Assembly: GCA_947038745.1 (NCBI GenBank)
Contig: CAMQXE010000114.1
Location: 1-5,092 of the forward strand
Length of the DNA: 5,092 nt
Source: an uncultured Propionibacteriaceae bacterium
GTDB taxonomy: Bacteria > Actinomycetota > Actinomycetes > Propionibacteriales > Propionibacteriaceae
Direction: 5' to 3'
Of this stretch, positions 1-5,092 are shown in pieces; the first letter of the stretch is position 1; every line of letters begins with the position of its first letter. The position numbers and the translations under genes were made by a program. Under the pieces are notes generated by a model. The model was not told the origin of the DNA. It searched no databases and saw only the letters and a list, made by a program, of their open reading frames with translations.

Positions 1-529
1 GGGCCAGATACCAGGTGGTGACGGCGCAGAAAGCGAATAGCGCTTCAGAGTAAGGGGCGAAGAGAAAGATGGCATACGGGCCGATGAACCACAAGGCGGC
101 AAGCTGAGTCAGATCGGTATCGGTAATTAACGGTGCGGCGCGTAAAAGCATGACTCCAGCAGCCCAACACGCAAGCCAGGTCACCAAAGTTGCGCAACAA
201 ACGATCAAGGTGCGGGAAGGCTCTTGCCCGGGTAGCAGCCAGGCAACGCCTCTCGCTAGGCCTGGGAATCCAGGGAAGAAAGCGACGTCGAAATAGTCCT
301 CACCAGCGCTGAGCGGACGATAGCCCTGATGCGCAATCCGAATGAAATGCCCTGAGTCGTAGCGGTCTAAGATCGTCAGAGGCCAGAAACTGCCAGCTAA
401 ATCGGCATGCCACAGCACTCGTCGCGTAGCAATGAGTAGACCGGTATATGCAAGCCAGAGGATACGGGAGATGACAAACCACTGTGTTGCTAGGCGCAGC
501 GGTATTCGCCAAGAACGAGTTGGGGTCAC
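1..529 (-). CDS. PIG-V-like membrane mannosyltransferase (GT-C fold), N-terminal part only
   Basis: Partial gene that runs off the left edge; 176 codons are visible from a GTG at 529-527. The protein is very hydrophobic and carries landmarks of the PIG-V / Mannosyl_trans2 family. A luminal-loop motif RYDSGHFIRIAHQGY spans residues 56-70, with Asp58 as the likely conserved acid. FFPGFPGL lies at 84-91 and FAPYSEALF at 157-165, matching the family's FFP-L-P and SP-SYSE-F blocks. Membrane segments are likely near 17-35, 108-128 and 143-160. Known family members add mannose from a polyprenyl-phosphate donor at the membrane; in actinobacteria they are linked to glycolipid or protein mannosylation. 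The acceptor cannot be inferred here. The start is chosen because it is the last in-frame GTG before the hydrophobic N-terminus. No good Shine-Dalgarno site precedes it, so the start is uncertain. It is divergent from corA, with 50 bases between the starts. Confidence 0.8.
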   Translation of the reverse strand, partial: MTPTRSWRIPLRLATQWFVISRILWLAYTGLLIATRRVLWHADLAGSFWPLTILDRYDSGHFIRIAHQGYRPLSAGEDYFDVAFFPGFPGLARGVAWLLPGQEPSRTLIVCCATLVTWLACWAAGVMLLRAAPLITDTDLTQLAALWFIGPYAIFLFAPYSEALFAFCAVTTWYLA

Positions 530-579: not shown

Positions 580-1584
580 GTGAATGCTCAACATGCGCTG
601 GTATGGCGCGACGGCGCTGTTCTGGCTAAAGATTTCACCCTTGACGTCTTGGATCAGTACCTGGCTGATCCAGAAAATCTCGTCTGGTTTGATCTATGCG
701 ATCCAAAACCTGCGACGTTGGCAAAACTCGCTGAGGAACTACAGCTTGATCAGAATGCCGTTGAAAACGTCATAACCCCTGGTGAGCGCCCCAAAGCTAC
801 GCGCTATGCCTCCCATATCTTCGTCACGATGTATGCCACTGAGCATGTCACTCCAGCAGAAGGGGCGGCTGACTCAGTGCAGTCTCGGATCGAAAAGACT
901 CGGGTGTCTGCCTTTGTGCTGCCGCATGGCTTAATCACGGTTCGCGCAGATCCGAACTTCGATATGGCTCCAGTAGTGGCGCAGTGGTTAGCTGAGCCGG
1001 ATCTACTCAATACCGGTTCGGCGGCGTTGCTCCACGGTTTGCTTGACGCGGTAGTGGATGGGCATTTTGTCACGATCCAAGAGATGGATGACGCTCTGGA
1101 GGCAGTTGAAGACCAGCTTTTTGATGAGCAACTTGCACCCCGGCAGCTCCAGCAGACGGTCTATCGTATCCGCAAAGAATTAGTAGATATGCGTCGCGTG
1201 GTGCTGCCTATGCGGGAGGTAGTCAATACGGTTTTGCGGCACCGTTTTGAGTTCACTTCCACCCCGGCGTTGGTCAGCTCCTATGAAGATCTCAACGACC
1301 ATGTCTTGCGTGCATCGGAGTGGACTGAATCCCTTCGCGACTTAGTCTCATCGATCTTTGAAGCTAACTTGTCCTTACAAGACGCCAGACTCAATAACGT
1401 CATGAAAAAGCTAGCGTCATGGGCGGCAATTATCGCTTTGCCAACGCTGGTTACTGGCTGGTTTGGGCAAAATGTGCCGTACCCAGGGTTCTCGGCAGTC
1501 TGGGGCTTCTGGCTTTCAGCGCTGCTGTGTGTTGGTGGTGCAGGCTTCCTCTACGTCGTATTTAAGCGGCTTGACTGGCTCTAG
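580..1584 (+). CDS. corA: CorA-family divalent metal (Mg2+/Co2+) channel with GQN signature
   Basis: A 334-residue protein from GTG 580, near the usual CorA length. Residues 1-270 form the cytoplasmic domain, including a long helical stretch (about 165-275) typical of the CorA stalk. Two membrane segments close the protein, about 278-297 and 308-327, followed by a short basic tail ending in KRLDWL. The loop after the first membrane helix reads FGQNVPYPG (295-303), where classical CorA proteins have YGMN. I recall GQN as common in actinobacterial homologues. CorA proteins are homopentameric inner-membrane channels that import Mg2+ and sometimes Co2+ or Ni2+; ion choice cannot be read from this sequence. 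The gene stands alone on the plus strand, divergent from the mannosyltransferase. Its last 69 bases overlap the convergent SDR gene. No terminator is visible at its end. Confidence 0.88.
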   Translation: MNAQHALVWRDGAVLAKDFTLDVLDQYLADPENLVWFDLCDPKPATLAKLAEELQLDQNAVENVITPGERPKATRYASHIFVTMYATEHVTPAEGAADSVQSRIEKTRVSAFVLPHGLITVRADPNFDMAPVVAQWLAEPDLLNTGSAALLHGLLDAVVDGHFVTIQEMDDALEAVEDQLFDEQLAPRQLQQTVYRIRKELVDMRRVVLPMREVVNTVLRHRFEFTSTPALVSSYEDLNDHVLRASEWTESLRDLVSSIFEANLSLQDARLNNVMKKLASWAAIIALPTLVTGWFGQNVPYPGFSAVWGFWLSALLCVGGAGFLYVVFKRLDWL

Positions 1585-2271
1585 CGTTACGGGCATCGCT
1601 GGACGGATACTGAGCATGTCGATATTTGCGGTGGGGCTGAGATCGACAGCGAGCTTTACAGTAGCTGCCACATCAGTAGGGTTGAGATGGTCGTCGGCAT
1701 GGTAATTGCAGCCTCGGTCTTGCCACATCCGTCGTTGCATGTCAGTATCGACCCGCCCTGGGTGGATTGAGGTAACTCGAACGAGCCCGCGCTCTTCTTC
1801 CCGTAGCGCATCGGTAAAGGCCTTGAGCGCATGCTTGCTCGCGGCATACAGTCCATCTCCAGTGCCTGCGGCAAAACCCGCACCAGAGTTCAAGGTGATG
1901 ACCTGCCCCTGAGCGGCGCGTAGCAGAGGCAAACACAGGCGAGTGAGTTCTGCTACAGCAATCACATTGACGTCGAAGATCTCACGCCAATCACTGTGGG
2001 TAGAGTTCTCGACCCGAGCAAATGTCGCGATACCGGCGTTGTGGATGAGAACGTCGAGTCGGTCAAGTTGAGCGACCTTAGTCGATAGCAGAGCGCTATC
2101 GCGCAGATCAGCGATGAAGGGGATCGAGTCCTCATAGAGTGAGCAGGCCGCAGCAACCCGGTCAGGCTGAGTTCCGCCAAGTACGAGCTGGTGAGTGGGG
2201 GACAGAGCCTGGGCAATAGCAGCACCGATACCTCGGGTAGCTCCGGTGATGAGCGCGACAGGGCGAGTCAT
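1516..2271 (-). CDS. Short-chain dehydrogenase/reductase (classical SDR)
   Basis: A 251-residue soluble NAD(P)-dependent oxidoreductase with all classical SDR landmarks in order. The cofactor motif TGATRGIG is at 9-16, where the Arg before the second Gly hints at NADP(H). Others are DLRD at 55-58, HNAG at 77-80, Asn102 in DVNV, catalytic Ser129, the YAASK pair Tyr142 and Lys146, and HPGRVDTDM at 170-178. The substrate is unknown; homologues of this kind are usually annotated only as SDR family proteins. The ATG overlaps the stop codon of the upstream maf gene in an ATGA arrangement, so the two are probably co-transcribed and translationally coupled. The conserved fold ends near IRPAMP (222-227). 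The remaining residues, through 251, are encoded almost wholly in the overlap with corA and look like a run-on tail. Confidence 0.9.
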   Translation of the reverse strand: MTRPVALITGATRGIGAAIAQALSPTHQLVLGGTQPDRVAAACSLYEDSIPFIADLRDSALLSTKVAQLDRLDVLIHNAGIATFARVENSTHSDWREIFDVNVIAVAELTRLCLPLLRAAQGQVITLNSGAGFAAGTGDGLYAASKHALKAFTDALREEERGLVRVTSIHPGRVDTDMQRRMWQDRGCNYHADDHLNPTDVAATVKLAVDLSPTANIDMLSIRPAMPVTLEPVKPLKYDVEEACTTNTQQR

Positions 2272-3010: not shown

Positions 3011-3661
3011 TTACTTGCCGGTGAGGATGTCCTTGAGCGTGCCCAAGATGCCGCCGGAGGACTGCTCAACCTGGAGATCAGACTGATCTGGGAACTGCAT
3101 CTGCGGGGTGCCATCGCCAGCAGACTGAGTCTGTGGGAAGGCCTGCGTTGCAGCGCCGCCGCCGAGGATGCCACCAAGCAAATCAGACAAAATTGTTCCT
3201 CCCGACTGCTGAGTCTGCTGCTTCTGTCCGCCGCCAAGGACGCCGTTAAGGAGCGGGCCGAGGATATTGCTGAACTGGCCCTGACCGATCTGCTTTGCCA
3301 AGTAACCCATGACGATCGGGGCGAGGTAAGGCAGGAGCTTCTTCAGCAACGGTGAGGCAAGACCAGCTACCGGAGCAATAGCCTGCTCGGCCTGCTGCGT
3401 CGAGCCGAACATGTGGGCAAGCATCTTTTCGCCATCGCTTGGATCAACCGAATCAATGGTCAGATCGTCATTTTCGTGGTCAGCAAGTGCAGTTGCGAGA
3501 GCCTTAGCGCCCTTGATATCAGTTGCATTGTGCGTAAGTTTTTCCAACAGAACCGGGACGATATTGGCCACGGACTCCTGGATCTGTTCTGGGCTAGCGC
3601 CGATCTGGGCAGCGATCTGCTTGATCGGGAGGTCAGTCAGAATCTGGTCGAGAGCAGACAT
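3011..3661 (-). CDS. DUF937 domain protein (YidB-like), function unknown
   Basis: A 216-residue protein matching the DUF937 pattern. It has an N-terminal helical segment with IAAQIGAS (16-23), VPVLLEKLTHNATDIKGAKAL (35-55, in outline), a charged stretch, DGEKMLAHMFG (76-86), then LLKKLLPYLAPIVMGYLAKQ (105-124). After about residue 135 the sequence turns into Gly/Gln-rich low complexity with LLGGILGGG (161-169), then a Gln/Pro/Ser-rich linker, and ends in a short GGILGTLKDIL helix (203-213). There is no signal peptide or clear membrane helix, although the Gly/Leu stretches are hydrophobic. The family's role is not established. The ATG at 3661 has a good ribosome binding site. The gene is monocistronic: a terminator follows and birA diverges upstream. 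Confidence 0.85.
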   Translation of the reverse strand: MSALDQILTDLPIKQIAAQIGASPEQIQESVANIVPVLLEKLTHNATDIKGAKALATALADHENDDLTIDSVDPSDGEKMLAHMFGSTQQAEQAIAPVAGLASPLLKKLLPYLAPIVMGYLAKQIGQGQFSNILGPLLNGVLGGGQKQQTQQSGGTILSDLLGGILGGGAATQAFPQTQSAGDGTPQMQFPDQSDLQVEQSSGGILGTLKDILTGK

Positions 3662-3784: not shown

Positions 3785-3958
3785 ATGATAAGCAAACTCG
3801 CTAGCCTTAAGCCATGCCACGATGTGAACCTGTTAGCGCTGATCGTCTCCAACCACTCATTGGCCGATTATGGCGCGACATTCACTGTATCGAGGAAACT
3901 GGGTCGACGAATGCTGATGTCATGGCACAAGCACATGCTGGAGCGGCAAGCGGGCTAG
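3785..3958 (+). CDS. Possible short upstream ORF overlapping birA (57 aa)
   Basis: The ORF opens at ATG 3785 behind an optimal AAGGAG and ends at TAG 3956-3958, deep inside birA in another frame. The product resembles nothing I recognise; beyond the first ten codons it is a shifted reading of birA. If translated, it could limit or couple birA translation, or the ribosome binding site could be a relic of an older birA start. Reported because of the strong initiation signal, not because the peptide looks functional. Confidence 0.25.
   Translation: MISKLASLKPCHDVNLLALIVSNHSLADYGATFTVSRKLGRRMLMSWHKHMLERQAG
3802..3807 (+). promoter_or_regulatory. Candidate -10 for a leaderless birA transcript
   Basis: TAGCCT fits TANNNT and lies exactly six bases before the birA ATG, the same geometry as at maf. 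No clear -35 is found 16-18 bases upstream, so it is weaker than the maf case. Confidence 0.25.
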
Positions 3959-4620
3959 TTCTCATCGCTGAGCATCAAACTGCAGGGCGGGGTCGGTTCT
4001 CGCGGCAGTGGGAAGATGCTGCTGGATCATCAATCGCCTTTTCAGTGCTGGTACGTCCACCAGCAGCTCAGCTAACTCAACTGGGGTGGTTGCCGCTATT
4101 AGCCGGGCTTGCAGTGCGAAAAGGAATAACGTCAGTAACCGGTGTTGATTTGGGGCTGAAATGGCCTAATGACATTTTGGTGACGAGCGGTCCGCGTCCA
4201 GGCAAGCTAGTCGGGATTCTCGCGGAACTCGCTGCCCGTCCAGAAGGGCCAGCCTGCGTCATTGGTGCAGGAATTAACGTTGCAATGAGTGAGGCTGAGC
4301 TGCCCGTAGCAACGGCAACATCTTTGTCGCTGTCCAACGCTAAGTGTCTGGATAAGACAGCAATCATGGCAGCAGTTTTACGCTCCTGGGAGGATTACTA
4401 CCTACGTTGGGTAGCAGGTGAAGACTTGCTTGCTGACTATCGCGCTCACTGCATCTCATTAGGGCAGCGAGTCCGCGTTCAGCTCGATGAGCAGAGTAAC
4501 CGAGGAGAGGTCGCCGAGGGAATCGCGACAGGTATTACCCCAGCCGGTGAGTTGATCGTGATGCTGGACTCAGGTGAGAGAGCCATTCTGGCGGCAGGAG
4601 ACGTCGTCCATTTACGTTAG
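3814..4620 (+). CDS. birA: Biotin-[acetyl-CoA-carboxylase] ligase, monofunctional type
   Basis: A 268-residue biotin-protein ligase that joins biotin to the carrier domain of acyl-CoA carboxylases through biotinyl-5'-AMP. Motifs in order: TGSTN at 29-33, AEHQTAGRGRFSRQW at 52-66 (the GRGRxxRxW biotin-AMP loop), KWPND at 116-120, KLVGILAEL at 131-139 with the likely catalytic Lys131, and GAGINV at 151-156. A C-terminal SH3-like domain spans about 215-268. There is no N-terminal helix-turn-helix, so unlike E. coli BirA it should not act as a biotin repressor. The ATG at 3814 is preceded directly by an in-frame TAA (3808-3810), so the protein cannot begin further upstream. No ribosome binding site is well placed. 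purK follows on the same strand after 54 bases. The catalytic motifs look intact. Confidence 0.95.
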   Translation: MPRCEPVSADRLQPLIGRLWRDIHCIEETGSTNADVMAQAHAGAASGLVLIAEHQTAGRGRFSRQWEDAAGSSIAFSVLVRPPAAQLTQLGWLPLLAGLAVRKGITSVTGVDLGLKWPNDILVTSGPRPGKLVGILAELAARPEGPACVIGAGINVAMSEAELPVATATSLSLSNAKCLDKTAIMAAVLRSWEDYYLRWVAGEDLLADYRAHCISLGQRVRVQLDEQSNRGEVAEGIATGITPAGELIVMLDSGERAILAAGDVVHLR

Positions 4621-4674: not shown

Positions 4675-5092
4675 ATGGGGGTGAGCATCCAACCCACGAT
4701 CGGCATCATCGGCGGTGGGCAGCTTGCCCAGATGATGGTGCAAGAAGCGATAGCGCTAGGGCTGCCGAGAATGATGACGTCAGTGCAGCGAAAGTAACTC
4801 CCCGCTATGTAGTGGGGGATTACACCGACCGCGACACAGTGCTGGCATTTGCGAGGGATTGTGCCGCAATCACCTTTGACCATGAGCAGGTGCCACCGGA
4901 ACTGCTCCGCGAGATCGAAGCTCTTGGTGTCACGGTGCATCCAAGCCCAGAAGCATTGATCTATGCCCAAGACAAAGCGCAGATGCGGCAGCGTCTTAGC
5001 GAAATGAAGATCCCCGCACCGCAATGGCGTTGCTGTGCCACTCCTGAAGAATTAGCCGCTTTCGGGCATGAATTGGGATTCCCGATCATCGC
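4675..5092 (+). pseudogene. purK: purK (N5-carboxyaminoimidazole ribonucleotide synthase), frameshifted by an internal deletion; 3' end outside window
   Basis: PurK is the ATP-grasp enzyme that makes N5-CAIR from AIR, bicarbonate and ATP in purine synthesis. The first frame, from ATG 4675 (or GTG 4681), gives the expected N-terminus with IGIIGGGQLAQMM and IALGLP to about residue 31. It then reads nine unrelated residues to a TAA at 4795-4797, a 40-residue product. PurK similarity resumes in a different frame at 4767 and stays open to the window end, with ENDDVSAAKVTP, VVGDYTD, ITFDHEQVP, VHPSPEAL and QDKAQMRQRL. The segment normally between ALG-LP and ENDD (about LRVLA/V-like, five or six residues) is missing. 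The frame change needs a loss of 3n+1 bases. No ATG, GTG or similar start in the second frame lies near the break that would restore the glycine-rich N-terminus. Assembly error remains possible. Location after birA fits a housekeeping cluster. Confidence 0.82.

Follow-up and report, generated by a model that had tools for sequence, protein, structure and literature searches.

Does the purK gene at the end of this contig still encode a working N5-carboxyaminoimidazole ribonucleotide synthase (PurK), and if it does not, is the break a property of the organism or of the contig? In the window (the whole stretch of 5,092 nucleotides that was analysed), purK is the next gene after birA on the plus strand and is cut by the contig end; since the contig stops 412 bases into purK, purE or a second copy of purK would be out of view. 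The window contains the following features, the relative P0121 being the closest PurK among the matches listed:

2-529, minus strand: piece of a PIG-V-like mannosyltransferase gene (NCBIfam/Pfam profiles)
corA, plus strand: CorA (NCBIfam/Pfam profiles)
1516-2271, minus strand: SDR oxidoreductase (best family model NF006073/PRK08219, residues 2-226 of 251)
maf, minus strand: Maf (NCBIfam/Pfam profiles)
3011-3661, minus strand: DUF937 protein of unknown function, between maf and birA (PF06078, 2.3e-24)
3814..4620, plus strand: birA, biotin--[acetyl-CoA-carboxylase] ligase, intact, upstream of purK (TIGR00121, 5.6e-43)
4681..4767, plus strand: first part of purK, in frame 1, running from the start codon GTG to the final residue matched by P0121 (25/27 identical)
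4762..4767, plus strand: junction of the deletion, about 16 bases shorter than in intact PurKs (from spacing, and from the gap between P0121 residues 27 and 32)
4764..5090, plus strand: remaining visible purK, in frame 3, with no stop before the contig end (92/109 identical to P0121)
4795..4797, plus strand: premature TAA ending frame 1 (direct reading), nine codons past the last matching codon

The original prediction, made from the letters of the window, was that purK is disrupted by an internal deletion with a change of frame, frame 1 carrying the start of PurK up to a stop at 4795 and frame 3 the rest, and family profiles, the matches to P0121 and the constant spacing in relatives all agree with it. 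Read directly, frame 1 runs from GTG at 4681 to the TAA at 4795-4797 (38 codons), with the PurK family matches confined to its first 33 residues; the best NCBIfam PurK model gives 5.2e-07 and Pfam PF22660 gives 4.5e-08 over profile positions 3-29 of 98. The frame-3 piece (4764-5090) matches NF004680 (6e-37, 127.3 bits) and covers PF22660 positions 34-98, so the preATP-grasp domain is present, split between the two frames. Against TIGR01161 the pieces score 26.6 and 66 bits, the second being shortened by the contig end as well, whereas the cut-off is 318.4; with frame 1 stopping at 4795, we found no single continuous PurK frame over the curated cut-off. Counting from 4681, there are 5 stop codons in frame 1, 11 in frame 2 and none in frame 3. 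When 4764-5092 was shuffled, frame 3 still stayed open in 232 of 20000 trials, and homology argues more strongly against chance, since the two pieces match a single PurK in the expected order, which rules out a chance open reading frame. The codon-position G+C of the frame-3 part (0.67/0.44/0.55) lies within the range of the contig's other genes. Judged from its letters, the frame as written cannot be expected to make PurK.

P0121, named as coming from a Propionibacteriaceae MAG, is intact and complete (377 aa), and relative to this close relative with a whole gene the window carries a disabling mutation. The frame-1 piece is identical to P0121 residues 1-27 at 25 of 27 positions and the frame-3 piece to residues 32-140 at 92 of 109 (84%), which leaves four P0121 residues between them. 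Searching solved structures with P0121 gave 36 matches, mostly PurK and other ATP-grasp enzymes. The size of the deletion follows from spacing: an A-A pair stands at a constant offset from the GGGQL motif in 44/44 PurKs from genome loci (a set that excludes L114, missed by the motif filter, and counts two genomes twice, as L007/L081 and L010/L082). Among 120 listed proteins (P0121-P0240), 91 have the pair at the same offset, 22 lack the letters GGGQL and so fall outside the spacing measurement, and 7 have other letters there (in 4, the pair comes one position sooner); when the same proteins are aligned, 0/120 show a gap across residues 24-40. The interval is 21 bases long in the relatives and 5 in the window, so 16 bases are missing. 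An estimate of 16-19 bases and about five residues, putatively a beta-strand, had been made beforehand, together with the coordinates 4756..4797 for the break; both sizes and the location hold.

In our view the best explanation, with a probability of roughly 0.7, is that a Propionibacteriaceae-like bacterium has recently undergone a genuine deletion in purK that abolishes the gene's function. About 16 bases are absent around codon 29, and nine codons further on frame 1 meets its stop. The product would be a peptide of 38 residues that lacks the ATP-grasp domain, so that PurK's step from AIR to N5-CAIR, which depends on ATP and bicarbonate, would be lost. Replication slippage may have produced the deletion, as the same bases at the junction can be assigned to either frame. 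A search for a direct repeat at the junction found none, the one direct 6-base pair lying away from the break; of eight short inverted pairs near it, three (I1, I4 and I6) touch the junction, and we do not read them as the cause. If viable, the cell would have to salvage purines, use another purK, or combine PurE with non-enzymatically formed N5-CAIR where CO2 suffices; a putative capnophilic or purine-scavenging lifestyle is possible. Such a loss-of-function allele of a housekeeping purine gene is an ordinary kind of event.

How long ago the break arose was approached through the sites at which the window and P0121 differ, scored against 119 other listed PurKs, with the intact birA as the control gene (scored against 118). 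The frame-3 part has 17 differences in 109 residues, the commoner residue being in P0121 at 9 and in the window at 8, with a mean log2 ratio that disfavours the window by 0.49; residues present in no relative number 2 in the window and 1 in P0121. In the N-terminal part 2 of 27 residues differ, each time to the disadvantage of the window, and one of the two is at the start position (mean log2 2.56). In BirA, 28 of 268 residues differ (13 to 14, with 1 tie), with a mean log2 ratio of 0.05 and residues seen in no relative at 1 site in the window versus 6 in its counterpart. Two window PurK residues are odd: a Q where 118/119 relatives have H, and a K where 104/119 have G and none has K. The lean towards decay is slight and too weak to use, and until recently, if not still, purK was under nearly normal constraint. 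The 9 to 8 split, beside 13 to 14 for BirA, fits a young break; being even, it means that the break is either recent or an artefact of this contig, and the constraint data do not separate the two.

The second of these, an assembly or amplification artefact, with a whole purK in the organism and a 16-base error or a chimeric join in the contig, is the strongest competitor, which we nevertheless consider unlikely. It is consistent with the intact state of the closest relative and with the missing signs of clear decay, an otherwise constrained gene being what an intact gene plus an assembly error would give. The break is moreover seen in a single contig: the cluster of the window BirA, P0002, holds 1 contig and 2 member sequences, and as its longest contig has 5092 bases, the length of the window, the window is probably one entire contig. 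A search with BirA for a genome of the same species gave a best match of 45% among 80 of 581 relatives; in 391 genomes of the order of G001, BirA was matched in 388, at best with 53% among the matches listed. The window PurK piece was matched in 175 of 198 genomes of the family of G330 (best 61%), a search for short PurK pieces of the same species gave none, its 3 matches reaching only 52-53%, and the junction did not turn up a second time in viral contigs (searched with the junction letters) or short proteins. The window BirA is 90% identical to P0001, its closest match, also named as from a Propionibacteriaceae MAG, and the window itself is probably metagenomic; P0001 and P0121 seem to come from the same relative, probably from one shared contig, both contigs having 9090 bases. 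Against an artefact, both sides of the break match this one PurK in the expected order and nothing else is displaced, and an internal loss of 16 bases is unlike a homopolymer error and probably not a common assembly error. A real loss of purK is further favoured by the family, in which PurK has seemingly been lost elsewhere with PurE kept. The break is thus most likely real and recent, and possibly an artefact of a single contig.

That family evidence comes from the 198 genomes of the family of G330, in which PurK scores over cut-off in 146 and PurE in 177. By our reading of the tables by eye, 34/198 genomes combine a strong PurE with the lack of any PurK over cut-off, a count in which single PurK absences may be gaps, the completeness of the 198 genomes not being stated. 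A genome was counted if its PurE match was below 1e-50, PurK stayed under the cut-off, and a match to the window PurK was absent or no better than about 1e-6; G209, G292 and G310 are included, taken as genomes without a match to the window PurK piece, while G393, G342, G243, G245 and G410 (which carry PurK) and G237 and G268 (PurE about 3e-25) are excluded. PurT is over cut-off in 12 of the 34, and where PurK scores are intermediate (14 genomes), PurT is always matched at 1e-118 or better, so that these scores are probably due to PurT. PurH has a match in 28 of the 34 and is over cut-off in 19. In six of the 34 (L143-L148), tblastn at an E-value of 0.01 found no PurK remnant between birA and purE; their PurE proteins, which by their motifs are probably class I, align closely with those of two PurK-bearing relatives (alignment of 8). 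PurE without PurK thus seems to occur in the family. According to PMC3261824, E. coli PurE turns AIR into CAIR without PurK at high bicarbonate, over-expression of PurE complements an E. coli purK deletion (a rescue repeated in PMC10912719), and several archaea have PurE and lack PurK. Taken together, the E. coli PurE activity at high bicarbonate and the 34 genomes make life without PurK plausible.

A real deletion that is older or fixed, in a lineage becoming independent of PurK like the PurK-less members of the family, is improbable; it is a sub-case of a real deletion, and its odds overlap with those of the main reading. It is in line with the 34 genomes, with the odd Q and K, with the mean log2 values that stand further against the window in both purK parts than in BirA, with the excess of residues found in no relative (2 to 1 in purK, 1 to 6 in BirA), and with PurK being 84% but BirA 90% identical to what seems to be the same relative. 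Yet the site split is even, frame 3 has acquired no further stop, and the six PurK-less loci hold no remnant, which makes those losses ones of another age or kind. Still more doubtful is the view of the deletion as a fixed, early stage in a repeated loss of PurK in Propionibacteriaceae, with a class I-like PurE acting alone in CO2-rich habitats. Among the matches listed from the 198 family genomes, none has an internal stop in PurK.

Recoding, by which ribosomal frameshifting or an internal restart would yield a working PurK, is very improbable even with frame 3 open throughout and possible starts such as GTG at 4812, since a restart product would be without the conserved N-terminal GGGQL region and frameshifting could not restore the about five absent residues, held at constant spacing in the relatives measured; programmed frameshifting was rejected because residues are missing as well as the frame.

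Returning to the recent, real deletion as the preferred reading, the window can be placed among known systems. With PurK (TIGR01161/NF004680, P0121) it shares the sequence and order of both pieces and PF22660; it differs in being about 16 bases short and broken in frame, and everything beyond residue 140 is past the contig end. With organisms that have PurE without PurK (the archaea in PMC3261824 and the 34/198 family genomes) it has in common that no working PurK can be read. The six PurK-less loci differ in having no purK remnant, whereas the purK of the window is present and broken, with PurE outside the view. A broken purK in Propionibacteriaceae was not found in the titles and abstracts searched, which is not proof of its absence in print. 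One broken housekeeping gene in one contig has little meaning alone; it raises the side question of how purines are made, and AIR carboxylated, in the part of the family that has PurE and lacks PurK.

Two observations concern the gene order. In L143-L148, birA is followed on the same strand by open reading frames of about 170-178 and 139-155 residues; the window, by contrast, has purK directly after birA. The SDR open reading frame of the window ends about 25 residues beyond the end of the NF006073/PRK08219 model and overlaps the 3' end of corA in antisense, an overrun that perhaps reflects a lost stop codon.
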